This document shows, one piece after another, positions 1 to 18,264 of a DNA stretch of 51,867 nt. The DNA lies in contig NZ_PSTT01000105.1 of NCBI RefSeq assembly GCF_002931235.1, forward strand, positions 1 to 51,867. Reading direction: 5' to 3'. This stretch comes from Subtercola sp. Z020 (GTDB lineage: Bacteria > Actinomycetota > Actinomycetes > Actinomycetales > Microbacteriaceae). A program made the position numbers and the translations under genes. Numbering within the stretch: the stretch's first letter is position 1; every line of letters starts with the position of its first letter. The notes beneath the pieces were generated by a model, which saw only the letters and a program-made list of their open reading frames with translations, was not told the DNA's origin and made no database searches.

Positions 1-9
1 GGGCGGGAC

Positions 10-369
10 GTGGCGAGCCCCGTTCCGCTGGTGCTCGGCGGTGCGGCCTTCGTCGTGAGCCTCGTGCTGGCTCTTGTCGAGGTGGCGGATGCCAGGGCAT
101 CCGATCTCGGATTCGTGACGCTGCCCGTGATCGAGCCGCGCCTCTGGTGGGTGGCCCTGCTCGGGTATGTGTTCACGCCGATCGTAGTGATCGTCGCCGC
201 GGGGCTCGACCGGCTGTGGCAGCGCTCCGGCCTTCGCGACCGGTACTTCACGCCCAAGCCGCTCTACGGCAGGGTGCTGCGGCTGCTCACCTGGGCCGGC
301 CTCGTGCTCGCGCTGTGGCACGTCGTGAACCTGGCGGCGGCTCTCTCCGACCTCTGGAGCAACCCGTGA
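10..369 (+). CDS. Small three-TM membrane protein, first gene of the vWA/tubulin-like locus
   Basis: Protein of 119 aa with three hydrophobic segments at about residues 5-25, 45-66 and 88-112, so probably integral to the membrane. I do not recognise a family. The GTG at 10 is the first in-frame start visible, but the window begins nine bases earlier, so the true start could lie upstream. Its TGA overlaps the ATG of the vWA gene (bases 367-371), which implies translational coupling and a shared transcript. The context suggests a membrane subunit or small partner of the vWA protein; that is inference from position only. Confidence 0.7.
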   Translation: MASPVPLVLGGAAFVVSLVLALVEVADARASDLGFVTLPVIEPRLWWVALLGYVFTPIVVIVAAGLDRLWQRSGLRDRYFTPKPLYGRVLRLLTWAGLVLALWHVVNLAAALSDLWSNP

Positions 370-3194
370 TGCGCCGCATGCTCGGCATAGCGCTCAGCGC
401 CCTGCTCGCCATCGGCGGGGCGGCGACACTGGGTGGCGCTGCAGCTGCGCCGGCAGCCAGCCTCCCCGCAGTGTCGGCGGCTGCGGCCGCGGGCGACACG
501 GCCCTCGACAGCACCGGCCAGGCGGCGATCGACGACGTGCGACGCTGCATCGCCTCGAACAAGCAGCTCAACGTCTTCTACCTGATCGATGCTTCGGGCA
601 GCCTGTTCGAGTCGTCGGAGGGCGACAACGCGACCGATCCTGATTTCGTGCGCGCCGACATCCTGGGCAACAGCCTGCGGCAGCTCGCCGGGCTCGGCAA
701 CGGTGTGCAGGTGAACTACAGCGCGGGCTTCTTCGGCTCGACCTACAAGCCCGCGGCCGGCTGGTCGACGGTGACCACGGAGACCGCCGACGCGGCCGCC
801 GGGTCGCTGGCCCAGAGCATCCGGGACCAGCCCTCGCTGAACAACACGGACTGGTCGGCCGGTATCGCCGGTGCCCAGGCGGCGCTGGCCAGCCAGCACG
901 CCGCCAACAACGGCTGCCAGATGATGGTCTGGCTGACCGATGGCGCGCTCGACCTCGGTGGCAGCGACGCCGACAATGCAGCGGCGATCAACACGCTCTG
1001 CGGCAACGCGATCGACGGGTCGAGCCAGCCGGCCGAGGGGCTCGGGGCTTTCAACACCCTGCGCCAGAACGGCGTCGTCGTGGTCGGCGTTCTGCTGTCG
1101 GTGCATCCCGAGCAGAGTGGGGCGGCCGACCGCCAGTACATGAGGCCGCTGGTCGAGTCGTCGGGCCAGGTCAACGGCACAGCTGTGACCTGTGGGCAGT
1201 CCCCGCCGCCGAGCTCGTCGGTGAACGGTGCCCTGGTCGAGGCGAACGACCCGAGCCAGTTGGCCGTGGTGTTCGCGCAGCTGAGCGTGCTGATCAACGG
1301 GGGGTACCCGCATCCGTTCGACGCAGACGGCGGCTTCCAGGTCGACCCGGGGGTCGCGAGCTTCACCGTCATCACCTCGGACTCGGCGTGGGTGCTCACG
1401 CCGCCCGAGGGGTCGGCGCTGGCAGCCATCTCGGGCTCGGCCGCCTCAGCCGACGCGGCGGTCACGACCACGGGCGGGGCGATCCAGATCGACGTCGACG
1501 TCTCCCGTTCGGATCTCGAGGGGCGGTGGATGCTCGCCACTCCGGGAGGCGGAGACCGCCAGCTCTACTACTACAGCGGCCTCACGATCACTCCGGCGCC
1601 GGCGAACCAGCTCGTGGCGGGCCTGGCGGGCACCGTGGGCGGGCAGCTCGCCTCGACCAGCGGGCGAGCCCTCGACCTCGGCGACTACGCACAGCCGCTC
1701 GAGGTGGCCGTCTCGAAGGTTCCCGCCGACGGTTCTGCTGTGCAGTCGATCGGCACCGTCGCCGTCGCAGCGGATGGCTCGTTCAGCCTGCCGTACACGC
1801 CGGGCGCCGACGACGGCGGAGCGGTGAACCTCGAGTACACGATCGACCCGCTCACGACGGCGGCGAACGGGATCGGGCTCGCGCCGGTGAGCGCCCAGCA
1901 GCAGGTGGTCGTCACGATTCCGGCCAACTACCCGTCGGTGACCCCGTCGGCGCTGGCACTCGGAACGCTCGAGGGCGCCAAGGGCAGCGCGACCGGAACG
2001 CTGACGCTGACGGCGCCCGCCGACGGCTCCGCCGGAAGGGTGTGCTTCCCGAAGGGAGCGACGCCGACGGTCGTGACCGACCCGGCGAACCGCACAGACT
2101 CGTGGCAGTGGAGCAGTTCGGCAGCTCTGACCGACGGGTGCGTTGCGCTCGCGCCGGGGCAGAGCGTCGGCGTCGAGCTGGCGGCCTCGAATGCCGTGGC
2201 GGCCAACAGTTCGGTGACGGCGACGCTGCCGGTGACGCTCACGAGCGCCGCAGGGGAGAGCCTGCCGCAGACGGTGACCGTGTCGTTCGAGACGACCCGG
2301 CCGGTGAATGCCGCGGCGTTCAACCTGCTGGTGCTGGTTCTCGTGCTGCTGGGGCTCGCGATCGCGGTGCTGCTGCTCTGGCTGATGAACCTTCTGACGT
2401 CGGGTATCGCGCACGGGCGGCAGCTGCTGCGCGCGTCGTTCCCGGTGACGGTCGACGGTGAGCACGGTGTGGTGGGTGCGCGAGGCGTCGACCTGATGGC
2501 GGCGTCGCTCGACGACTTCAGGTACCAGGCGCCGCTCGAGACGGTGAAGACGCACGTCGACCCGGAGCTCGGGGGGCTGCGCACGCATGCGGGGCTGTTC
2601 CAGGTGCGGTACGAGATCACGGCGCCGGCGGGGTGGCGGGTGTTCACAGCGCTGGGTGCCGGGCGTGTGGCGGGCGGCGGTGCGCTCGCGGGCGCGGGGC
2701 GCGCTTCGGGCGGGCTCGGTGCGCGACGCCGGCGGCTCGTCGAAGCGGGGCACGTGGCCCCGATGCCCGAGCAGCTGAACCGGCTGTGGGCCGTCGTCGT
2801 TCGCGAGAACGACCTCGCCGCCGGTGAGCCGGGCAGCGCCATCCCCGGCCGGCTCGTGGTCTACAAGCGCAACGAGCCGAACCGGGCCGACCAGTTCGTC
2901 GACCGGATGCTCGACATCACCCGGGACCAGGCGATCTGGCCGCGACTGGCCCGCGCGCGGGCGCTGCTGATCGAGGAGCGCGCCGCGACCGGCGCGGAAC
3001 GGGCATCCGGAGACCGCCCGACCGTGACGACGCCGAGCGGGCCGGCGCCCTCGCAACGGGGTGGTGACCGGGTCGCGCCCTCGTCTGCGCCGTCATCTGC
3101 ACCGCCGCCCGTCACCCGCTCGCCCGGGAGCCTGCCGCCGCCTCCGCCACCCCGCGGCGCCGGCGATGCGCCGCCCCCGGCGCCCCGCCGCTGA
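369..3194 (+). CDS. Secreted, membrane-anchored von Willebrand factor A domain protein
   Basis: 941-aa protein. Residues 1-40 form a signal-peptide-like N-terminus (MRRM, a hydrophobic core, then Ala-rich). A vWA domain follows, with the MIDAS metal-site motif DASGS at residues 74-78, an NNTD stretch near 160 and WLTDG near 188. The middle (about 330-640) is Ser/Thr/Gly-rich and beta-like. A single strong TM segment lies near 650-675, then a basic, probably cytoplasmic tail of about 260 residues ending in a Pro-rich stretch. The start is the ATG overlapping the stop of the preceding gene; in-frame sequence upstream of 369 is antisense to that gene's reading and was not used. The vWA domain probably binds a protein partner outside the cell while the tail faces the tubulin-like protein encoded next. 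vWA identity is clear; the partner is unknown. Confidence 0.85.
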   Translation: MRRMLGIALSALLAIGGAATLGGAAAAPAASLPAVSAAAAAGDTALDSTGQAAIDDVRRCIASNKQLNVFYLIDASGSLFESSEGDNATDPDFVRADILGNSLRQLAGLGNGVQVNYSAGFFGSTYKPAAGWSTVTTETADAAAGSLAQSIRDQPSLNNTDWSAGIAGAQAALASQHAANNGCQMMVWLTDGALDLGGSDADNAAAINTLCGNAIDGSSQPAEGLGAFNTLRQNGVVVVGVLLSVHPEQSGAADRQYMRPLVESSGQVNGTAVTCGQSPPPSSSVNGALVEANDPSQLAVVFAQLSVLINGGYPHPFDADGGFQVDPGVASFTVITSDSAWVLTPPEGSALAAISGSAASADAAVTTTGGAIQIDVDVSRSDLEGRWMLATPGGGDRQLYYYSGLTITPAPANQLVAGLAGTVGGQLASTSGRALDLGDYAQPLEVAVSKVPADGSAVQSIGTVAVAADGSFSLPYTPGADDGGAVNLEYTIDPLTTAANGIGLAPVSAQQQVVVTIPANYPSVTPSALALGTLEGAKGSATGTLTLTAPADGSAGRVCFPKGATPTVVTDPANRTDSWQWSSSAALTDGCVALAPGQSVGVELAASNAVAANSSVTATLPVTLTSAAGESLPQTVTVSFETTRPVNAAAFNLLVLVLVLLGLAIAVLLLWLMNLLTSGIAHGRQLLRASFPVTVDGEHGVVGARGVDLMAASLDDFRYQAPLETVKTHVDPELGGLRTHAGLFQVRYEITAPAGWRVFTALGAGRVAGGGALAGAGRASGGLGARRRRLVEAGHVAPMPEQLNRLWAVVVRENDLAAGEPGSAIPGRLVVYKRNEPNRADQFVDRMLDITRDQAIWPRLARARALLIEERAATGAERASGDRPTVTTPSGPAPSQRGGDRVAPSSAPSSAPPPVTRSPGSLPPPPPPRGAGDAPPPAPRR

Positions 3195-3241
3195 CCCGGC
3201 CCTCGACCTCACAGACCCGACCACCTGCCCAGGAGGCACAC

Positions 3242-6200
3242 ATGCTCAGACCGTTTCTCATCATCGGCGTCGGCGGTTCCGGCGGAAAGACCCTGCGCGG
3301 GCTCCGGCACGCACTCGAACTGCGCCTCCAGCAGGCCGGCTGGCAGGAGGGCCTGCCCGCCGCGTGGCAGATGCTGCACTTCGACACCCCGATCGCGCAG
3401 GACGGCGCGGACTACCCGCAGCCCTTCATGCCGCCGCAGAACTACAAGGGGCTCGTGACGGGCGGTGGAGCCTACGAGAGCGTCTTCGGCGGCATCGTGC
3501 ACGGCAAGAAGATCGCCAATCAGGCGATGGACGACGTCGTTCGCCAGCTTCCCGACCCCAAGAGGGTTCCGGTCGACGTGACGAAGGGCGCGGGCCAGTT
3601 CCGCGCCGTGGGGCGAGCCGTCGCACTCTCGAAGCTCTCCGACATCGCGAAGGCCGCCTCCGAGGCGATCAACACGATGAGCGACGCTAAGGCGCTCGGG
3701 CAGCTGCGCACTCTCGGTGATGTGCTGAAGGCGAAGAGCGACGGCGGCGTGACGCCGAACCCCACGGTCATCGTGGTCTCCTCCATCGCGGGCGGCTCCG
3801 GTGCCGGCCAGTACATCGATGTCATCGAGGCGATCAAGGCGACCGCCAAGACGCAGCCCTGGGCGTACCAGTTCTTCAGCCTGCTCTTCGCGCCCGACGT
3901 GTTCGACCAGATCAAGGGCAGCGGCGGCATCCCGAGCAACGCGCTTGCCACCGTTGCAGAGACGATGAACGGCTTCTGGACGACGAACCCCTCGCAGTCG
4001 ACCATCGAGCTCTTCAAGAGCAAGGGCCTGACTCCCTCGTACGGCGGTGCGCGCGACAAAGTCGGCGGTGCGTACCCGTTCATCATCGGTCGCCAGAACT
4101 CGAAGATCTCGTTCGACAACCAGGGTGAGGTGTACTCGGCGCTCGCGACGAGTGTCGCGGCCTGGATGACCGACGACAAGGTGCAGGGCGACATCGACGA
4201 GTACGCCACCGGCAACTGGACGGCGAACGTCGGCGCGAACAAGCTCAGCGACGAGTCCCGGTTGATGCGGCCGATCGACCAGTCGCCGCCGTTCTCCTCG
4301 CTCGGCTTCGGCCGGGTGACGCTCGGGCGCGAGAAGTTCCTCGACTACGCCGCCGAACGCTTCGCCCGATCATCCGTCGACCGGATGCTGCACTGGCACG
4401 CCGAGAGCGACCCCCTCTTCAAGGAACGCACCCGCGAGGAGTGGATCGCCCTGAAGGCCTCGTGGGCCCTCACCGGGTTCATCAGCGCGGCCGGTCTCGA
4501 CGAAGAGACCGAGGAGCGCAACGACGTGACCGACGCGCTGCGGGATGCACCGGCCCAGCAGCTGCTGCAGCTCGCCTTCGAGAAAGACGTGCTCGACTCG
4601 GCCGGTGCCGAGAGTTCGCTCGACCGCACCGGGGGGCTCGACATCTCGATCTGGCAGGAACGCCTGATCGCCGAGCACCGCGACAGGGTCGGGCGCTACC
4701 TCGACCGCGACACGGCCAATCGGCAGGCGAAGCTGAACGAGTGGATCGCGACGCAGCCCGACCATATTCTCGCCACCGTCGAGCAGGCGATCGCCGAGCA
4801 CGGCCTGCCGGTCGCCGTAGAGGTTCTGAACCGCACCGGCCGCGTGCTGAAGAGCGCGGGGGAGTCCCTGCGGCAGGAGGCCGAGCAGCGGCGCGGCTGG
4901 GTGGCGCAACTCGACGGGTACATCCACAGTGAGCTGAGCCAGGCGCCGAGCCAGAACTCGATCCGGCCCGAGCAGGATCCCGTTCAGACCGCTGTGCAGC
5001 GTGTCGGCCAAGCGTTCGAGTGGGAGTCGGAGGCCCGGCTGCGCGAGAGCACGGCGGCCCTGCTGCACGAGTTGCAGCGTGACTTCCTCGATCCGCTCCG
5101 CAGTCACCTGGCGAGCAGTCTCGCCGCTCTGCAGTCGCGGGTCTCCGAGCAGAACCACTCCGACGGCCGCGTCAACGAGTACGAGTTCTGGCCACGCCAA
5201 GACGACCAGACCGTGCCGCGCAAGTACGCGCCGGCGCCGAACGAACGGTTGCTGGTCGAGGTCGCCGAATACCCGCGGGAGTTCGAATCCCTCGTCTCCT
5301 CCGCCGCGAACGGCGTGCAGTTCGGCGACGCGATGCCGCAGGTGATGGGCACGATCCTGCTCGGCACGATCGGCGACGAGACGGTCACCGATGCGAACCA
5401 GCGCTGGCGACTCATCCAGAGCACCCGCTCGTGGAAGCCGGTGGTGACCGCCGAGGCGACCCACGTGGTGTCCGCACCCCAGCTGCCCCGGTTCACCTTC
5501 GCCGACCAGCCCGAGGTCTACGTCGAGCGCGCCCGCATCTGGATGCTGCGCCAGGGCACGGCCTTCCAGAGCTACATCACCGAAGACCTGCGCACCTACT
5601 TCGACGAGCAGCACGTCGACCCGTCGCTGTTCAAGCGCCGGAAGGACAAGTTCACCGAGCAGCTGCGGGCGGCCCTCGGGTCGAGCGAGCCGCTGGTCAA
5701 ACTGAACCCCGCGCTGCTCAGCGAGGTGCACGGCAAGTCGGTCGGTGAGGGCACGCGGCTGGTGTTCAGCTCGATCCCCTTCGAAGCGGGAACCGAGATG
5801 TACGAGGTGACGAAGCACGCCCTCGTCACACAGGGCGTGTGGGACGACACCGTCTCGAAGGGCTGGTTCCAGGATGCCCGGGTCGACGGCATCGAGATCT
5901 TCGCCATGTCGGGCTTCCCCTACCAGCCGTTCGTCATGGACTCGGTGATGGAGCCCATCGCCCGGGGCTGGCTCGCCGAGTCGAACAACGTGAACTCGCG
6001 CGCCGCCTTCTGGAAGTGGAAGCGCTCGCGACTGCTGGCCGAAGCCGTGCCGGCCGACCCCGAGGTGATCGAGTCGATCATCCGCGGCTGGTACGTGGCG
6101 AAGGCGCTCGGCCAGCTGGCCGTCGACACGAGCGACGACGCCCGCGGGCCCGCCCTCAGCGTGTGGGACGCCGAGCACCGCTCGTACGCCTCGTTCCCGC

Positions 6201-6655
6201 ATCCGCTGCTCTACCCCGGCATCGCCCCCTCGAACGACTACCCGGGCATCGTGCTCGAGTCGCTGATCGTTGCGATGGCGCTGATCAGCTCGCAGGCCTC
6301 GCTGCAGCCGCTCTACGCGTACCACGCGCTGATGGAGCTCGGCGGGGCGCCGGGGCAACTGTCGCGCCCGCTCTCGGAGTGGATCCGGTCGGGCGAGCTC
6401 GGCGGAGGCGCACCGGTTCCCGATGCCGAACGGGCCGGGGGAGCATCCGCCCCCCTCGCCGCTCGCCAGAGCGCACTGCAGACCTTCCTCGAGAGCGAGC
6501 TCGACGACTTCCGTGCCGAGATCGTGACGCAGGATGCCCGCACCAGCGTCTACAACTACCCGGTGAGCTGGGAGATCCGCGACCTGGTCACCCGCGTGCT
6601 GGGCGATCTGCGTGACGGGGTCGTCGAGATCAAGGCCGCGAAGTCGGGTATCTAG
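3242..6655 (+). CDS. Tubulin/FtsZ-superfamily-like protein (Tubulin_2 type)
   Basis: 1137-aa protein. The N-terminus carries a glycine-rich nucleotide-binding loop (LIIGVGGSGGKT, residues about 6-17), followed by a conserved-looking HFDT element and then AGGSGAGQ at residues 183-190. That last motif matches the position and form of the tubulin/FtsZ signature loop (GGGTGSG-like). This points to the large tubulin-like family recorded in Pfam as Tubulin_2; FtsZ is about 400 aa, so some 700 residues here are additional and I do not recognise them. A strong Shine-Dalgarno (AGGAGG, 3231-3236) precedes the ATG. The stop shares a base with the GTG of the next gene. Nucleotide binding is a family inference; polymerisation is not shown by the sequence. 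Confidence 0.75.
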   Translation: MLRPFLIIGVGGSGGKTLRGLRHALELRLQQAGWQEGLPAAWQMLHFDTPIAQDGADYPQPFMPPQNYKGLVTGGGAYESVFGGIVHGKKIANQAMDDVVRQLPDPKRVPVDVTKGAGQFRAVGRAVALSKLSDIAKAASEAINTMSDAKALGQLRTLGDVLKAKSDGGVTPNPTVIVVSSIAGGSGAGQYIDVIEAIKATAKTQPWAYQFFSLLFAPDVFDQIKGSGGIPSNALATVAETMNGFWTTNPSQSTIELFKSKGLTPSYGGARDKVGGAYPFIIGRQNSKISFDNQGEVYSALATSVAAWMTDDKVQGDIDEYATGNWTANVGANKLSDESRLMRPIDQSPPFSSLGFGRVTLGREKFLDYAAERFARSSVDRMLHWHAESDPLFKERTREEWIALKASWALTGFISAAGLDEETEERNDVTDALRDAPAQQLLQLAFEKDVLDSAGAESSLDRTGGLDISIWQERLIAEHRDRVGRYLDRDTANRQAKLNEWIATQPDHILATVEQAIAEHGLPVAVEVLNRTGRVLKSAGESLRQEAEQRRGWVAQLDGYIHSELSQAPSQNSIRPEQDPVQTAVQRVGQAFEWESEARLRESTAALLHELQRDFLDPLRSHLASSLAALQSRVSEQNHSDGRVNEYEFWPRQDDQTVPRKYAPAPNERLLVEVAEYPREFESLVSSAANGVQFGDAMPQVMGTILLGTIGDETVTDANQRWRLIQSTRSWKPVVTAEATHVVSAPQLPRFTFADQPEVYVERARIWMLRQGTAFQSYITEDLRTYFDEQHVDPSLFKRRKDKFTEQLRAALGSSEPLVKLNPALLSEVHGKSVGEGTRLVFSSIPFEAGTEMYEVTKHALVTQGVWDDTVSKGWFQDARVDGIEIFAMSGFPYQPFVMDSVMEPIARGWLAESNNVNSRAAFWKWKRSRLLAEAVPADPEVIESIIRGWYVAKALGQLAVDTSDDARGPALSVWDAEHRSYASFPHPLLYPGIAPSNDYPGIVLESLIVAMALISSQASLQPLYAYHALMELGGAPGQLSRPLSEWIRSGELGGGAPVPDAERAGGASAPLAARQSALQTFLESELDDFRAEIVTQDARTSVYNYPVSWEIRDLVTRVLGDLRDGVVEIKAAKSGI

Positions 6656-9600
6656 TGGCAGCTCAGGGAATGTGGCCGAACGGCGCGGTGAGCATCGTGC
6701 TGCTGCCGAGCGGCGAGCAGGGTGCGGCGCTGTTCGACCTCGCCCGCGACTGGGTCGGGCTCTCTCTGCTCGCTCCGGCCCTCTTCGTGCGGCCCGAGCG
6801 GGTCAGCATGCTGCCCGACAGCCCGCCCAGCGTGCGCGCGTGGGTGATCGGTGTCGACGGCAATCGTGAGGTGCAGCAGATCGATGTCGACCTCTTCGAA
6901 GCCCTGGCCCGGGAATCGCTGTCGCTCGTGCGGCTGATCAAGGTGCGTTCCGCCTCGCCGAGCCGCGAGAACGACGAACTGCAGGATGCGATCGGGCAGA
7001 GCGTCAGCGACTACATCTCCCTCTCGCTGCCCTCGGTGAACCCGGAATACTCGCACCTCGCGGCCAGAACGTCGCTGATGAAGGTGAGCCTGATCGCGGC
7101 GCCCACCGAGTTCCAACTGCGCGAACGAGTCGAGTGGGCAGAGAACGACCAGGGTGTGACGCTCGTGGCGTCGCCCGAAGACCGGTCGAGCCCGTGGGCC
7201 GGTGACGCCTTCGTGCGCGACAACGCGCGGTTCGTCGGCTTCACCCTGATGCACATCGCGACGGTCGGCGGGCTCTGGAACGGCGTGCCGACCGGGTCGC
7301 TCGAACTGATGCAGTCGTCGGCTCCCTCGGGCGGAATCTGGATGCCTCGGGTCTTCGTCAACGGCGTGATGACCGACGGTCTCGCCCGACGTGTGGCGGC
7401 GCAGGTGCTCGACCAGGCGTCAGACCCGCACTCGGCGCTGATCGACCCGTCGCGTGGGGTGCCCGCGGAGGGCACGAGCGCGATCCCCGACGAGCGCATC
7501 GACGACTACGTCGGAGCGATGGTGGATGCCGCGTTCCAGCTCGACGACAAGAAGCTCGCCTACCGCGCGCCCGCGTCGATCGGCTCGCTCGCCAAACCGC
7601 GCGTCGGGGCCTTCCGCCAACTCGGGCTCTTTCTCGCCTTCGCGGCGGAGAAGATCCTCTGGATGCCGTACTGGTTCGTCGCGTTCTTCCGCGACGGCTT
7701 CGCCGCTGCGGTGCAGCGACTGTTCCAGGGCGCCAAGGGGCGACTCGAGGTGGGCGCGGCGACGCGGGTCGACGCGCGCGACCGGATGCTGCTGGCGGCC
7801 CGCTCTGCGCTCGTCGAGGCCGAGGCGACCGCCCAGGAGACCCTGCGCTCACCGGCAGCCGCGAGTGCCCTCCGTTCGACCCCCCGCCTCTGGACGGGGC
7901 TCCGCGAACTCGTCTTCGGCTCGCTCGACGGCAGCGCAGACCTCGAAGACCGCGGGTTCACGCCCATCGAAGACAAGACGCCGGTCTTCGGGCGGGTCAG
8001 CGACGTGCTGCCCGACTCCACGGATGTGTGGCAGTTCCCGGCGTCACCGGTTCCGCCCGGGTTCCCGGCCAGCGTCGGGTCGCAGAACCTGCACGAGGGT
8101 ACAGAGCTCCGCGAGAAGCTCGGGCGGGCGATGCACGAGACGCGGGTGCTCGCCGAGAAGGCCGACTCCGACTACGACGACGCGCAGGCGGAATACGTCG
8201 CGGCATCCGCCCGACACGAGACGCTGCGAGAGTACCTGCTCGCACAGGGCGCGATCGCGCCAGAGGGGGGTGCCGGGGGTGACGGCGGTGCCGGAGGTGC
8301 GCCCACGGTGTTGGTGCCCGATGCGTCGCTCGCGGCATCCCTTTCAGAGAACCTGTCGTCGTCACCCGGAGCGGTCTCGGAGTCGGCGGTCGACGATCCC
8401 TTCGCGTCGCTTCGACCGTATCTCGCCGAGTTCCTGGCCCTGCCGGCCCGCCTGCAGGCGCTCGAGCTCGCGGGCTCGACCCTGCGCGACACGCAGAACC
8501 AGCTGGCGGAGCGACTCACCACCTACCGCGCGGCACTCGACTCGTTCGAGACCTGGCTCAGCCAGCGCGAGCGGTCGTTCCTCTGGCAGATGCTCGCCCG
8601 CATGAACCGGGCCCGTGACACGGCCCGCTCCGACCTCGACGGGTTCACCCGGCGCATCTCGGCCACCGAGCTGCCCGAAGACGGCACGCTCGTCAGGCTG
8701 CGCCAGACCTTCCACGGGCGGGTACTCACGTCGACGTCGATTCTGCTGCTGATCGCGCTGGTGGCGGTTCTGCTGCCTCGCGCCGTGCAGATTGTGCGCG
8801 ACTGGCGGTTCTATCCAGACGATTGGATGATCGTCACCTGCGTTGTCGTGCTGATCGTCATATTCCTTCTGGGCTATCTGGCGAGCTACTACCGCGGCTG
8901 GTCGGAGTTCGACCGAACCGTGAGCGAGACGATCGACGAGCTGCACCAACTCGGCCGGGCGACGACCCAGGTGCGGAGCGAGCTGCACCGCCTGTCGAGC
9001 CTGCACACGCAGAGCATGGACTGGCTCGAACTGCTCGCGGTCTCGCTGTACCGGCCGTGGGCGGTGCGGCCGGCCTGGCTCGACTCGGGGCTGAGTTCGC
9101 TCGACACCCTGTCGATGCCGTTCGCGATGCAGGTGGCGCAGGCCTACGAAGGCACCTCGTCGGAGTCGATCCGGCTGCAGCACGCCGCGGCCCGCAGCCT
9201 CGTGCGTGTGGGGTGGCGCGCCCGCGCGTTCGAAGAGATGCTCACGGCGATCGGCGCCCGCCTCGGCCTCTCTGCCGAGCAGCTCGGGCTCGACGCCCTC
9301 GACCACGACCTGCCGCACGCCTCGAACAACTCGCGGCGCATCGTGCGCGACAACATGACCGACGACGTGCTGCTCGAGTCGGTTGCACGCCTGCACCTCG
9401 GCGAGCTCATCCAGGCGGTGCAGAGCGGGGCGCTCTACGAGTCGAAGCCGCGCGTGCGCCGCATGGTCTCCGACCCGCTCGCTGCGCTGCAGGCGGATGC
9501 CGCGGGAATCGACCGGGGAGTCGAAGACCTCGAATGGGGAGCGTTCCTCACCGGGGCCCTCGGCGAGGAGAGCGACCCGATCACGCCGCTCAGCGCCCTC

Positions 9601-9993
9601 GGCATCGCGCCGTTCGAGCTGCAGGACGGGCACCACATCGAGCCCTCGACCTACATCCTCGGGCCCGCCCGCATTGCGTCGTCGCTCGCGTCGCGCCCAC
9701 GGGTGCACGTGTCGTCGTACAGCGACGCGGTCGCTCGGCCGCTCGATGTCGTGCTGCGGGTGGACCTCGCGGGGCCGCTGCCGCTCGGGGCGGTGCACCT
9801 GTGGGGCGACAGCCGCAGGCGGCATCCGCAGCTCGCGCCGCAGCCCGGTGCCGGTGGCGCTGCCGCTTCTGCGTGGGTTGACGGAGGTGCGGGCGCTGGC
9901 GCTTTCTCGCCGCGCTGCCCGCGCTGCGGCAAGACGACGTGCCCCGGCGCGGCATCCGGTCGGGCATCCGACTGCGTCAACTCGGGAATCTAG
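6655..9993 (+). CDS. Large membrane protein of unknown function, fourth gene of the locus
   Basis: 1112-aa protein starting at a GTG that overlaps the TAG of the tubulin-like gene by one base. A long N-terminal soluble region (about 1-320) is followed by a hydrophobic amphipathic stretch near 320-350, a charged region with a Gly-rich loop near 540-555, and two clear TM helices at about 691-711 and 724-746. The C-terminus has CPRCGKTTC near residue 1089, half of a zinc-ribbon-like knuckle, plus one further Cys near the end. The protein matches nothing I recognise. Tight coupling suggests that it forms a membrane complex with the tubulin-like and vWA proteins. Confidence 0.7.
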   Translation: MAAQGMWPNGAVSIVLLPSGEQGAALFDLARDWVGLSLLAPALFVRPERVSMLPDSPPSVRAWVIGVDGNREVQQIDVDLFEALARESLSLVRLIKVRSASPSRENDELQDAIGQSVSDYISLSLPSVNPEYSHLAARTSLMKVSLIAAPTEFQLRERVEWAENDQGVTLVASPEDRSSPWAGDAFVRDNARFVGFTLMHIATVGGLWNGVPTGSLELMQSSAPSGGIWMPRVFVNGVMTDGLARRVAAQVLDQASDPHSALIDPSRGVPAEGTSAIPDERIDDYVGAMVDAAFQLDDKKLAYRAPASIGSLAKPRVGAFRQLGLFLAFAAEKILWMPYWFVAFFRDGFAAAVQRLFQGAKGRLEVGAATRVDARDRMLLAARSALVEAEATAQETLRSPAAASALRSTPRLWTGLRELVFGSLDGSADLEDRGFTPIEDKTPVFGRVSDVLPDSTDVWQFPASPVPPGFPASVGSQNLHEGTELREKLGRAMHETRVLAEKADSDYDDAQAEYVAASARHETLREYLLAQGAIAPEGGAGGDGGAGGAPTVLVPDASLAASLSENLSSSPGAVSESAVDDPFASLRPYLAEFLALPARLQALELAGSTLRDTQNQLAERLTTYRAALDSFETWLSQRERSFLWQMLARMNRARDTARSDLDGFTRRISATELPEDGTLVRLRQTFHGRVLTSTSILLLIALVAVLLPRAVQIVRDWRFYPDDWMIVTCVVVLIVIFLLGYLASYYRGWSEFDRTVSETIDELHQLGRATTQVRSELHRLSSLHTQSMDWLELLAVSLYRPWAVRPAWLDSGLSSLDTLSMPFAMQVAQAYEGTSSESIRLQHAAARSLVRVGWRARAFEEMLTAIGARLGLSAEQLGLDALDHDLPHASNNSRRIVRDNMTDDVLLESVARLHLGELIQAVQSGALYESKPRVRRMVSDPLAALQADAAGIDRGVEDLEWGAFLTGALGEESDPITPLSALGIAPFELQDGHHIEPSTYILGPARIASSLASRPRVHVSSYSDAVARPLDVVLRVDLAGPLPLGAVHLWGDSRRRHPQLAPQPGAGGAAASAWVDGGAGAGAFSPRCPRCGKTTCPGAASGRASDCVNSGI

Positions 9994-10066: not shown

Positions 10067-10627
10067 ATGGCCGACGTCGTGGCCGTCTGCGTCGTGCATG
10101 CGCTCCGCCCCGACGACGGATCGATCGGCACCACTGCCATCGACAAACGCCCCGTCGACGGCCCGGTACGCGTCAGGCCGTACGGCCTGCACGCGGATGT
10201 TCAGGCCGATCGTAAACACCATGGCGGCCTCGACCAGGCGATCTACGTCTACGCGCAGGCCGACGCCACCTTCTGGGAGGGCTCGCTCGGGCGCGACCTG
10301 CCGCCCGGCTGGTTCGGGGAGAACCTCCGCGTCGACGACATCGACGTATCGGGCGCCCCGATCGGTTCGCAGTGGCAGATCGGAGCATCCGTCGTCGTCG
10401 AGGTCACCTCCCCGCGCACGCCCTGCCAGACCTTCGCCCGCTGGGTGGGCGGGCCGGATGAACGGGGGTGGGTGAAGCGTTTCGCTGCCGCCGGGCGCCC
10501 CGGCGCCTACCTCCGCGTCGTGAAGCCGGGCACGATCGCGGCCGGCGACCCCATCGTGGTGCTGTCGTCGCCGCCGAACGCGCCCACCATCGCCGAGGTG
10601 TTCGCGGGCACCCGCTCTGTGGGCTAA
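10067..10627 (+). CDS. MOSC domain-containing protein (YiiM-like)
   Basis: 186-aa protein built around a MOSC (molybdenum cofactor sulfurase C-terminal) domain. The visible signatures are the KHHGG motif near residues 49-53, WFGENL near 83-88 and the cysteine motif SPRTPCQTF near 114-122, whose Cys carries sulfur in this superfamily. Homologues such as YiiM take part in molybdenum-cofactor-dependent detoxification of N-hydroxylated compounds; the substrate here cannot be read from the sequence. The ATG is preceded by GGAGGAGG (10054-10061). The gene stands alone between the vWA locus and tRNA-Pro, and its stop codon overlaps the likely tRNA -10 box. Confidence 0.88.
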   Translation: MADVVAVCVVHALRPDDGSIGTTAIDKRPVDGPVRVRPYGLHADVQADRKHHGGLDQAIYVYAQADATFWEGSLGRDLPPGWFGENLRVDDIDVSGAPIGSQWQIGASVVVEVTSPRTPCQTFARWVGGPDERGWVKRFAAAGRPGAYLRVVKPGTIAAGDPIVVLSSPPNAPTIAEVFAGTRSVG

Positions 10628-10630
10628 TAT
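10625..10630 (+). promoter_or_regulatory. Probable -10 box of tRNA-Pro
   Basis: TAATAT is close to consensus, overlaps the MOSC stop codon and sits 15 bases before the first base of the tRNA. No convincing -35 is visible within the MOSC coding sequence. Confidence 0.5.
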
Positions 10631-10645
10631 GGACAAGTTGTCCCA

Positions 10646-10719
10646 CGGGCTGTAGCGCAGCTTGGTAGCGCACCTGACTGGGGGTCAGGGGGTCGCAGGT
10701 TCAAATCCTGTCAGCCCGA
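10646..10719 (+). tRNA. tRNA-Pro (anticodon GGG)
   Basis: A 74-nt cloverleaf: a perfect 7-bp acceptor stem (CGGGCTG with CAGCCCG), a D arm with GCGC...GCGC, an anticodon stem CCTGA/TCAGG around the loop CTGGGGG (anticodon GGG, reads CCC) and a T arm GCAGG-TTCAAAT-CCTGT. The discriminator base is A and CCA is not encoded in the DNA. The transcription unit appears to end at the hairpin ten bases downstream. Confidence 0.95.
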
Positions 10720-10728
10720 CAACACGGA

Positions 10729-11630: not shown

Positions 11631-11712
11631 CCCAGACGCCACCAATTCAGTGGGCATAGCCGCGGCGCGGCGCGGCCGGCCTGCCATGATGGAGGCGACG
11701 GAAGGCGGAGGC

Positions 11713-13821
11713 ATGCAGCAGACCGGCGGAGCGCAGAGCGGCGCGCAGAAGAGCAGCGGAGCGCAGAGCGGCGTGCAGCGGATCGACGTGGTGGAGATGA
11801 GCGTCGGCGAGATGCTGGCGGCGCTCGACGAGGGGCGCGTGACGAGCGTCGAGCTGGTGTGCGCCTACCTCAACCGCATCGCGTACTACGACCGCACGGG
11901 GTTGTGCCTGCACGCGATCGCGGTGCTTGATCCGACCTGCCTGGAGCAGGCTGCGGCCTCCGACGCCCGCCGCGCGGCCGGTGGCCCGGTGCGGCCGCTG
12001 GAGGGCATCCCGTTCACCGTGAAAGACAGCTACAAGGTCGAAGGCCTGACCGTGGCATCCGGCAGCCCCGCGCTCGCCGAGCTGGTGGCGACCGGCGACG
12101 CGGCATCCGTCGCCCAGCTGCGTGCCGCCGGCGCCGTGCTGCTCGGCAAGACGAACATGCCGCCGATGGCCGCGGGCGGCATGCAGCCGGGCCTCTACGA
12201 CTACGCCCGGAGCCCCTACCACCCGCAGTTCCTGACGGCCGCGTACGGGTCGGGGTCGTCGAGTGGATCGGGTACGGCGACGGCGGCGAGTCTCTGCGCC
12301 TTCGGCATGGCGGAGGAGACGGTGTCGTCGGGGCGGGCGCCCGCGTCGAACAACAGCCTGGTGGCGTACACGCCGTCGAGGGGAGTGCTGTCGATCCGCG
12401 GCAACTGGCCGCTGCGGCCGACCTGCGACGTCGTCGTGCCGCACACGCGCACGGTCGCCGACCTGCTGCTGCTGCTCGATGTGCTCGCCGTCGGCGACGA
12501 CGACCGGAGCGGCGACTTCTGGCGTGAGCAGTCCGCGGTCGCCCTGCCTGCGCCCGAGGAGGTGCTGCCTCATCCGGTCGCCAGGCCCCGCCCGAGACGG
12601 CTCGACGGGCTGCGCATCGGGGTGCCGCGCCTCTACATCGGCGAGGATGCCGCGCCGATCGACCCGCCGGCCATCCGCCCGAGTGTGCGGGCGCTCTGGG
12701 ACCGAGCGGCCGACGACCTGCGGGCGCTCGGTGCGGAGGTCGTCGAGGTCGACTTTCCCGTCGTGTCGAACTACGAGGAGGACCGGCCCGGCGCCGAAGG
12801 CCTGGCCGACCGCGGCCTCGTTCCCGCGAACTGGCGCGCCCTCGAAGGCGGAACCGTCACCGCGATGGCGCTCGACGCCTTTCTGCGCGACAACGCCGAC
12901 CCGACCCTGTCGAGTTGGGCCGATGTCGACGGTGACACCGTCTTTCCTGTTGCCGATGCGCCGGTTCCGGTGTGGATCACGCGCGCCCGCGGCGGGTTCG
13001 ACTGGCAACGGCTCGCCGAGCTGGTCAAGCAGGGGCTGCCGGCGACGTTCGACGAGGTGCCGGGCCTCGCGCAGCTGCTGACCGGCCTCGAGACTGCCCG
13101 GCGGGTCGATTTCGAAGAGTGGATGCTCGCCCAGCGCCTCGATCTCGTCGTCTTCCCCGCGGCGGGCGACGTGGGCCGGGTCGACCTGTTCACCCGCCCC
13201 GAGAGCCTGGAGGCGGCCTCCCGCAACGGCGTGGTCTATTCGAACGGCAACCGCGTGATCCGGCACCTCGGTATACCGACCGTCACGGTTCCGATGGGGT
13301 TCATGGCCGACCTCCAGATGCCGGTGGGGCTCACCTTCGCCGGTGCGGCCTACAGCGATGACCGTCTGCTCGACTACGCGTCGGCGTATGAGGGCGCGAC
13401 GCGGCGGCGGCAGCCGGCGTTCCTGACGCCGACGCTGCCGAGCAACCAGATCGATGTGGCGGTCGGGCTGGCTGGGCAATCTCCGACTCCGGATGCCGCG
13501 GGGCTGGTCGAGTCGGCTCTGGATGCCGCGGGGCTGCCCGCATCGTCTGCGATGGCGTCGAGCCTGACGGTCGTGTCGATCGAGGCGCGGGGCCGGTCGT
13601 GGGAGGTGGAGGTGCGGGTCGATGACGCCACTGCTGCGGATCGCGCATCCACCACTCGCGTGTGGGCCGACGGCCACATTCTGCGCGCGGTGCCGGGGGA
13701 GCCGGGCGTCTTTCGCGGGAAGGTGTCGCTGTCGCGGGCCCGTCTCAGCGCCGAGATGATGATCCTGGTCGCGACGGGCCGCTCGTCGGCGTCACTGATC
13801 ATCGAGCCGCTGCCCCAGTAA
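11713..13821 (+). CDS. Amidase-signature family hydrolase
   Basis: About 702 aa. The Ser-cisSer-Lys machinery of amidase-signature enzymes is visible: the catalytic Lys in FTVKDSYK (about residue 105), the Gly/Ser-rich loop GSGSSSGSGTA (about 180-190), and ETVSSGRAP (about 202-210), where the second Ser aligns with the nucleophile of the usual DTGGSIRxP. The C-terminal 120 residues form an extra beta-like domain beyond the usual 450-500 aa length. Probable cytoplasmic C-N hydrolase of unknown substrate. I chose the ATG behind GGAAGGCGGAGG; ATG 11686 or 11689 and GTG 11650 are alternatives, and a CATGAT -10-like hexamer at 11685-11690 favours 11713. Confidence 0.8.
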   Translation: MQQTGGAQSGAQKSSGAQSGVQRIDVVEMSVGEMLAALDEGRVTSVELVCAYLNRIAYYDRTGLCLHAIAVLDPTCLEQAAASDARRAAGGPVRPLEGIPFTVKDSYKVEGLTVASGSPALAELVATGDAASVAQLRAAGAVLLGKTNMPPMAAGGMQPGLYDYARSPYHPQFLTAAYGSGSSSGSGTATAASLCAFGMAEETVSSGRAPASNNSLVAYTPSRGVLSIRGNWPLRPTCDVVVPHTRTVADLLLLLDVLAVGDDDRSGDFWREQSAVALPAPEEVLPHPVARPRPRRLDGLRIGVPRLYIGEDAAPIDPPAIRPSVRALWDRAADDLRALGAEVVEVDFPVVSNYEEDRPGAEGLADRGLVPANWRALEGGTVTAMALDAFLRDNADPTLSSWADVDGDTVFPVADAPVPVWITRARGGFDWQRLAELVKQGLPATFDEVPGLAQLLTGLETARRVDFEEWMLAQRLDLVVFPAAGDVGRVDLFTRPESLEAASRNGVVYSNGNRVIRHLGIPTVTVPMGFMADLQMPVGLTFAGAAYSDDRLLDYASAYEGATRRRQPAFLTPTLPSNQIDVAVGLAGQSPTPDAAGLVESALDAAGLPASSAMASSLTVVSIEARGRSWEVEVRVDDATAADRASTTRVWADGHILRAVPGEPGVFRGKVSLSRARLSAEMMILVATGRSSASLIIEPLPQ

Positions 13822-13845
13822 TGAGCGAATGTCGGAAGGCTTCGC

Positions 13846-13851
13846 TAGCAT
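13846..13851 (+). promoter_or_regulatory. -10 element, leaderless promoter of the UvrA-like gene
   Basis: TAGCAT ends seven bases before the ATG at 13859, placing the predicted transcription start within one base of the start codon. Confidence 0.5.
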
Positions 13852-13858
13852 CGGGGGC

Positions 13859-16200
<2,342 letters not shown>

Positions 16201-16201
<1 letters not shown>

Positions 16202-17235: not shown

Positions 17236-18264
17236 ATGGCAAGCGAAGCGGTGATGCTCGATGTTCCCGGCGCCGGCGACGGCGAGGCCCGGCAGGTGCG
17301 GCTGTCAAGCCCGAGCCGGGTGCTCTGGCCCGATCCCGGCATCACCAAGCTCGACCTGGCGAACTACATCGTCGCGGTCGGCGATGCGTTCGTGCGGGCC
17401 AATGGCGACCGTCCGATCTCGCTGCAGCGCTTTCCCGAGGGCATCGACGGGGAACAGTTCTTCTCCAAGAATCCGCCGAAGGGAGCGCCGGACTTCGTGC
17501 GCTCGGTGAAGGTCGTCTACCCGAGCGCCCGCTCGCATCCGCAGCTCGTCATCGACGAGCCCGCCACGGCGGTCTGGGCCGTACAGATGAACACCGTCGT
17601 CTTCCATCCGTGGGCGTCGCGTGCCGAGACGAGCGACTTTCCCGACCAGTTGCGCATCGACCTCGACCCGCAGCCGGGCACCGACTTCGACGATGCGATT
17701 CCTGCCGCATTCGAGCTGCAGAAGGTGCTCGACGAGGCCGGTCTCGTGGCGTTCGTGAAGACATCCGGCAACCGCGGCTTGCATGTGTTCGCGCCGATCG
17801 AGCCGACACACGAATTTCTCGAGGTGCGTCACGCGGTGATCGCGGCCGCCCGCGAACTCGAACGACGCATGCCCGACACGGTCACGACCGCGTGGTGGAA
17901 GGAGGAGCGCGGCACGCGCATCTTCGTCGACTTCAACCAGGCCAATCGCGATCGCACCATGGCGGGCGCATACAGCCCGCGCGCGCTCGCCCACGCGCCG
18001 GTCTCGACGCCGCTCGAATGGAGTGAACTCGGCAGCGCTGACCCGAAAGCGTTCACGATCGGCACGGTTCCCGAGCGGCTCCGGATGATCGGGGATCCGT
18101 GGGAGCGGATGCATGACCACCCGGGCACCATCGACGTGCTGCTCTCGTGGTGGGAGCGCGACCTGGCCGCCGGTCTCGGTGAGCTGCCGTTCCCGCCGGA
18201 CTATCCGAAGATGCCGGGGGAGCCGCCGCGGGTGCAGCCGAGCAGGGCCAAGAAGGTGGAGTGA
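17236..18264 (+). CDS. LigD-type primase-polymerase (PolDom) for end joining
   Basis: 342-aa archaeo-eukaryotic-primase-fold polymerase. The metal-binding motif LRIDLDPQPG lies near residues 138-147, the SGxxGxH motif (TSGNRGLHVF) near 176-185, and a third acidic motif VDFNQANRDRT near 230-240. Length and motifs match the polymerase domain of LigD, which adds nucleotides, with a preference for ribonucleotides, at double-strand breaks during non-homologous end joining. Here it is freestanding, with no ligase or nuclease domain attached; a separate ATP-dependent ligase lies at 21719-22783. No Ku gene is present in the window. The start agrees with the leaderless promoter. Confidence 0.9.
   Translation: MASEAVMLDVPGAGDGEARQVRLSSPSRVLWPDPGITKLDLANYIVAVGDAFVRANGDRPISLQRFPEGIDGEQFFSKNPPKGAPDFVRSVKVVYPSARSHPQLVIDEPATAVWAVQMNTVVFHPWASRAETSDFPDQLRIDLDPQPGTDFDDAIPAAFELQKVLDEAGLVAFVKTSGNRGLHVFAPIEPTHEFLEVRHAVIAAARELERRMPDTVTTAWWKEERGTRIFVDFNQANRDRTMAGAYSPRALAHAPVSTPLEWSELGSADPKAFTIGTVPERLRMIGDPWERMHDHPGTIDVLLSWWERDLAAGLGELPFPPDYPKMPGEPPRVQPSRAKKVE

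Follow-up and report, generated by a model that had tools for sequence, protein, structure and literature searches.

The locus at the start of the analysed stretch of DNA (51,867 nucleotides in full, hereafter the window) raises the question of what kind of system is encoded where a tubulin-like gene stands between genes for a surface vWA protein and for membrane proteins, and how its products might be linked physically. The locus is almost certainly an FtsZl1/vWA system. According to the ORF translations of the window, four adjacent ORFs on the + strand encode a small multi-TM protein (1..369), a secreted vWA protein that has one TM and an inner tail rich in proline (366..3194), a Tubulin_2 protein of 1137 aa (3242..6655) and a two-TM protein of 1112 aa (6655..9993). 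The close joining of four genes described in the first-pass annotation was recovered with all ORFs present. The start of the vWA gene is overlapped by the stop of the small-TM gene in GTGATG at 366-371, a gap of 47 bases containing AGGAGG separates the vWA stop from the tubulin-like ATG at 3242, and the tubulin-like stop and the two-TM start overlap by one base at 6655. A MOSC gene with a tRNA-Pro (10067..10720, +, flank annotation) forms the right border and lies outside the cassette.

The assignment of the 1137-residue protein to the tubulin/FtsZ type was borne out by sequence profiles and by the predicted fold. PF13809 (Tubulin_2) covers residues 6-379 (E 3.2e-38, 132 bits against a curated cut-off of 27) and was found at E 0.01 or better in all 34 aligned relatives; PF00091 (classical FtsZ/tubulin) gave no match at E 0.1 in the window protein and reached E 0.01 in 3 of the 34 relatives (best 0.0054). 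Among named relatives, the closest tubulin-like protein is that of Subtercola boreus (locus L020, 90% identity). The AlphaFold2 (AF2) model, built from 34 sequences (mean pLDDT 89.5, pTM 0.81), agrees with the tubulin-type fold that the assignment implied, the 50 Foldseek matches listed all being entries with tubulins, CetZ or FtsZ (probability 0.99-1.00, TM-scores by target 0.29-0.44, best E 1.2e-3 and none at 0.001 or better among these 50). Long helices at residues 468-520, 522-555 and 579-635 are followed by a mixed, mostly helical remainder, and in the model a predicted coiled-coil middle and mostly helical C-terminal part of the FtsZl1 type are both present. Against PDB sequence profiles the tubulin-like and two-TM families scored weakly (best E 0.03-0.04), for the most part on helical segments. 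The T1-type loop GVGGSGGKT (residues 9-17; 3266..3292, +) and the T4 signature loop AGGSGAG (residues 183-189; 3788..3808, +), the latter recognised at the outset, are both in place. K16, T17, D48, D54, the T4 glycines (G184, G185, G187, G189), N233 and E240 were invariant in 34/34 aligned sequences, and D337, after the presumed H7, was acidic in 91% of them. These invariant loop residues and the acidic position at D337 make GTP binding likely, and the protein is probably cytosolic.

For the vWA protein (assigned from ORF, alignment and profile), hydropathy showed a signal-peptide-like stretch at residues 5-23 and a single TM at residues 654-672 (2325..2381, +) followed by 270 residues, in agreement with the earlier description of an outside vWA domain, one TM and an inner tail. 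The MIDAS motif DASGS (DxSxS; residues 75-79; 588..602, +) was complete, since D75, S77, S79, T161 and D192 were all invariant in 14/14 aligned vWA sequences, as were six cysteines N-terminal to the TM. Nine of these 14, the window copy not included, matched VWA_2 at E 0.01 or better, and the best solved relative by profile was the vWA domain of TRAP (PDB 4f1j and others, E 3e-4). With the MIDAS domain outside, the topology fits the trans-envelope machine proposed from the first reading. As a separate observation, acidic-aromatic stretches close several of the vWA tails, and those in L104, L110, L127, L131, L133 and L135 have acidic residues plus a tryptophan at or near the end (DDDVW, DDSW and DPWA, for example). 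Such acidic-tryptophan tails resemble the tail of TRAP-family adhesins. In L095 (6068-9319, numbered with the tubulin gene brought onto the + strand), the C-termini are ELPIH in the small TM protein and DLPIS in the vWA protein, hinting that other cassette members may have a second shared tail.

The large protein without a recognisable domain proved to be as first described: it has two TMs (8740..8883, +, hydropathy) and no Pfam family. Pfam and NCBIfam gave nothing convincing for the window copy, Pfam gave stray weak matches only across 28 aligned members, and Foldseek on its model returned long-helix matches only, at E 0.057 or weaker, with no confident fold. The model (pLDDT 81, pTM 0.67) is ordered as N-terminal strands and helices, long helices, two TMs, a C-terminal domain and a disordered end. 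In five loci (L032, L033, L036, L040, L059) the profile matches were spread over two ORFs, indicating that the two-TM protein can be split. For the small gene, the three hydrophobic stretches reported earlier are visible, and the one point to correct is that its start need not be at base 10. Base 1 of the window is a contig end in a 166-contig genome and the frame is open upstream, while in 29 of the 34 relatives' loci having one the corresponding upstream ORF exceeds the 122 residues of the window copy (180-198 aa in L020-L023), so that the window copy appears to be cut at its 5' end, probably by the contig end. Any gene preceding it would fall outside the window.

The four genes were found together in most relatives. 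From 45 relative loci, L030, L048 and L060 were left unused for a partial or split tubulin gene, and in the 42 usable loci the partner was defined as a two-TM profile match at most 4 kb downstream of the tubulin-like gene. In this neighbourhood survey the adjacency predicted earlier proved near-constant, with the two-TM partner downstream in 40/42 loci (in L045 and L057 it was not found, with a contig end close by) and a small multi-TM ORF upstream of the vWA place in 34/38. The vWA gene was found by phmmer in 33 of 39 loci with sufficient upstream sequence, a long TM-bearing ORF occupied its place in 5 more of those 39, and tblastn with the window small protein found a relative in 27/45 loci at E 0.01 or better. 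The order of vWA-type ORF, tubulin-like gene and TM protein gene is kept in most other Actinomycetota loci, and this recurrence in distant relatives indicates that it is not due to chance.

Within Subtercola, the cassette lies at a fixed site. In L020 the der gene is directly followed by the four cassette genes; in L022 and L023 der and a LysE gene precede them, and L021 begins at the LysE gene. The MOSC gene lies 3' of the cassette in L021-L023 and in the window, and in L020 the region of MOSC is matched by an antisense ORF only. In L020, L022 and L023 the interval bounded by the flanking genes shows no additional conspicuous ORF on the same strand. Tubulin_2 was absent from all three same-genus genomes L141, L142 and L143, where der adjoins MOSC directly (L141, L143) or is separated from it by a LysR-like gene followed by LysE (L142). 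Given this empty site, the four genes are best read from gene order as having been gained or lost together, as one cassette. The distribution of Tubulin_2 is patchy (10/199 genomes of the family, 22/396 of the order, 28/394 of the class and 17/396 of the phylum). Tubulin-like relatives at E 1e-10 were present in 2 of 72,556 plasmid records, both megaplasmids of two Rhodococcus (L065), and phage records contained no relative at E 1e-3, which leaves a phage origin unsupported. L028, filed under the name Planococcus sp. APC 4015 (Bacillota), carries a cassette whose tubulin-like protein groups with Microbacterium in the tree; the record is probably mislabelled or contaminated.

The locus is thus a compact actinobacterial FtsZl1/vWA cassette, and the first-pass view of it as an undescribed system had to be given up, as FtsZl1 and vWA operons were defined in 2010 by Makarova and Koonin (PMC2875224), where, in the accessible part of the article, an actinobacterial clade is named and the operons are presented as a putative membrane-remodelling machine. 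As described in that part, those operons share with the present locus the N-terminal tubulin-like domain, long coiled-coil middle and helical C-terminal part, the adjoining vWA gene (with a signal peptide in several cases there) and membrane proteins. A P-loop GTPase, a Ser/Thr kinase and OmpA are described there as frequent but not obligatory operon genes, whereas all three are absent from the four proteins here (Pfam). The cassette boundary and the matched tails reported below are not mentioned in the accessible part of PMC2875224. In the parts available of two later articles, a tree is rooted with Tubulin_2 proteins (PMC9871819, 2023) and a Tubulin_2 protein is noted in Borg elements (PMC9879509). 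Among the papers listed by literature searches, one of which showed 30 of 255 and which left most subscription journals outside their coverage, none was by its title an experimental study of FtsZl1/vWA operons, and nothing on matched tails appeared. New here are the behaviour as one cassette, the tubulin, CetZ and FtsZ entries as best fold matches of the model, and the covarying tails.

With the vWA domain outside and the tubulin-like protein probably cytosolic, the two could be in contact only via the vWA inner tail; the same topology problem was raised by a reviewer in the accessible part of PMC2875224, who suggested transport or signalling. A further candidate link was observed at the C-termini. 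The tubulin-like protein ends in KSGI (6641..6652, +) and the two-TM protein in NSGI (9979..9990, +), and in many loci the last 3-4 residues of the two proteins agree with each other while varying from one lineage to the next. Subtercola has SGI/SGI, Leifsonia SGV/SGV, Occultella REFL/REFL and Georgenia AFL/AFL or W/W; three Acidimicrobiia loci have PLM/PLM, and L053 has PSF/PDF.

In the first set of 39 loci, which includes the window (L031 and L064 were dropped for a cut or unsure partner end), the last residue was identical in 28, against a shuffle mean of 6.2, and none of 20,000 shuffles gave as high a count. After clustering, identity remained at 16/25 clusters at 80% (2.7 expected), 9/17 at 65% (1.2 expected) and 5/10 at 50% (1.0 expected, p 0.0009), the 50% clustering being single-linkage and not a phylogenetic test. 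At positions -1 to -5 identity was 0.72, 0.74, 0.49, 0.38 and 0.18 (expected 0.15, 0.28, 0.15, 0.12 and 0.13) and fell to background beyond -5. The second set consisted of 55 far loci, of which 17 were excluded, giving 29 clusters with less than 65% identity to the first set; its partner, taken as the largest following TM-bearing ORF and not by homology, may be misassigned in some cases. The last residue was the same in 10 of these 29 clusters (3.1 expected, p 5e-5). The pairs include EVF/EVF, IEY/LEY, GSGF/GEGF and APRI/APRV, and the raised identity was less confined (0.17-0.34 at -1 to -7, expected 0.07-0.10). With both sets pooled, 19/46 clusters matched against 3.7 expected.

Mismatches were also common. 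The last residue differed in 11 of the 39 first-set loci (L033, L034, L035, L036, L040, L042, L043, L044, L050, L052 and L062), in 19/29 second-set clusters and in 27/46 pooled; two of the 11 are Rathayibacter with an I/V difference, the I/V choice being loose there. The match DDD/DDD in L059 is low-complexity acid. The I/V table for Microbacteriaceae (10, 7, 1, 1; Fisher p 0.001) mostly mirrors clade membership and carries little independent weight.

The vWA tail did not share in this agreement. A first control with the vWA tail, in which some vWA ends were doubtful, gave 2/43 matches (3.2 expected). In a cleaner control, from which doubtful vWA calls were removed and 39/46 clusters were kept, the tubulin-like/two-TM pair matched in 18 (3.4 expected), and no excess was found for tubulin-like/vWA (1, 2.8 expected) or two-TM/vWA (2, 2.8 expected). 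A tail shared by the vWA protein as a general rule was rejected by both controls. Common ancestry was likewise discarded as the cause, since three profile comparisons of parts of the tubulin-like and two-TM proteins detected no homology (probabilities below 1%). A constraint at the DNA level is unlikely, because the codons of the two tails differ in the ten loci listed, with one exception partly alike. A C-terminus of the form [ST]-G-[IV] is of the PDZ-ligand type, and this reading was also rejected, as it fits the Microbacteriaceae tails only and none of the four proteins has a PDZ family. Both ends are flexible in the models (residues 1131-1137 of the tubulin-like protein, pLDDT 59 in AF2; residues 1110-1112 of the two-TM protein, under 50). 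The covariation shows tails that would be interchangeable between the tubulin-like protein and the scaffold.

That two unrelated operon proteins retain a common flexible C-terminus through many changes is best explained by one common receptor co-evolving with both; such a receptor could not be found. Most likely, the cassette builds a complex across the envelope, in which the outside vWA domain would bind a ligand via its metal site and the TM would relay this to the cytosolic Pro-rich tail. Inside, the putative tubulin-like GTPase and the two-TM coiled-coil scaffold would act as partners, both C-terminal tails docking on one common pocket, with the GTPase recruited to, or competing with, the scaffold at the membrane, comparable to what adaptors do with the C-terminal peptide of FtsZ. 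We give the docking of both tails on one site, judged from the covariation, an even chance of being right; the whole envelope-spanning complex with its shared tail dock is the best explanation overall, held at a little short of even confidence. Trans-envelope adhesion or mechanical coupling is proposed tentatively as the overall role.

A membrane-remodelling or vesicle machine, in which a polymer of the tubulin-like protein would shape the membrane, with the vWA and TM proteins as its anchors, is possible though rather unlikely. It was published in 2010 for the same family (PMC2875224), and hydropathy gives TM stretches in all three partners; however, the four proteins are without a known remodelling domain (Pfam), the T6-H7 elements were not identifiable in FtsZl1 according to the accessible part of PMC2875224, and the outside MIDAS domain would have no obvious part to play. 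Remodelling and a shared dock are compatible and do not exclude each other. We favour trans-envelope coupling over remodelling because a MIDAS domain lies outside and a tubulin-type GTPase inside, although the data separate the two poorly.

That the shared tail is a regulatory tag (a C-terminal degron or protease site matching the levels of the two proteins) and not a docking peptide would be in line with short, flexible C-termini in both; a housekeeping protease would favour one tag, whereas the tails range over SGI, REFL, PLM, EVF and IEY, making this reading improbable. Still less probable is a role in defence or conflict, directed at phages or neighbours. The patchy occurrence in the family and the presence or absence of the cassette at one fixed site in near relatives would suit it, but PADLOC-DB gave 0 families for 4/4 proteins, Pfam found no toxin or nuclease family in them, and relatives were lacking from phage records at the threshold given above. 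Finally, a by-product of lineage amino-acid bias or ORF choice is very hard to sustain: the tails are short and often acidic-hydrophobic and the second-set partner was not homology-called, but composition was preserved in the shuffles, the vWA control from the same genomes was negative, and stop codons fix the C-termini, to which ORF choice was blind.

The envelope-spanning complex with a shared dock can be set beside known systems. As in FtsZ, a putative tubulin-fold GTPase has a flexible tail that closes with a short motif; unlike in FtsZ, the motif is found again in an unrelated membrane protein encoded by the operon, and FtsZ_C was absent from the Pfam results for the four cassette proteins. 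TubZ partition differs in that the cassette lies at a fixed site beside der/LysE and MOSC in Subtercola, relatives of its tubulin-like protein are rare among plasmid records, and no DNA-binding family occurs among the partners (Pfam). The Plasmodium adhesin TRAP has one TM and a cytosolic tail and is linked to the cytoskeleton. Like TRAP, the cassette vWA protein has a vWA domain with MIDAS; in contrast to TRAP, its partner is tubulin-like and not actin-myosin, and with the vWA domain alone matched the likeness is one of analogy only.

The covarying tails provide a concrete, testable physical link from the tubulin-like protein to a membrane partner, and the compact cassette of four genes, whose site is empty in near relatives, lends itself to a simple deletion. 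A tail code in Actinomycetota, by which polymer and scaffold would take turns on one shared dock under a MIDAS adhesin, is a doubtful extension; if true, bacteria would possess an equivalent of integrin- or TRAP-type adhesion-cytoskeleton coupling that uses tubulin instead of actin. If bacterial tubulin-like proteins do couple to surface adhesins, the roles of the superfamily would extend past division, partition and cell shape.

Further into the window, an amidase gene (11650-13821) precedes a gene (13829-16201) whose product, a large ABC-type ATPase that matches the DnaJ zinc domain weakly, we take to be UvrA-like, and a protein with a LigD-type primase-polymerase domain is encoded at 17236-18264 (Pfam E 2e-91).
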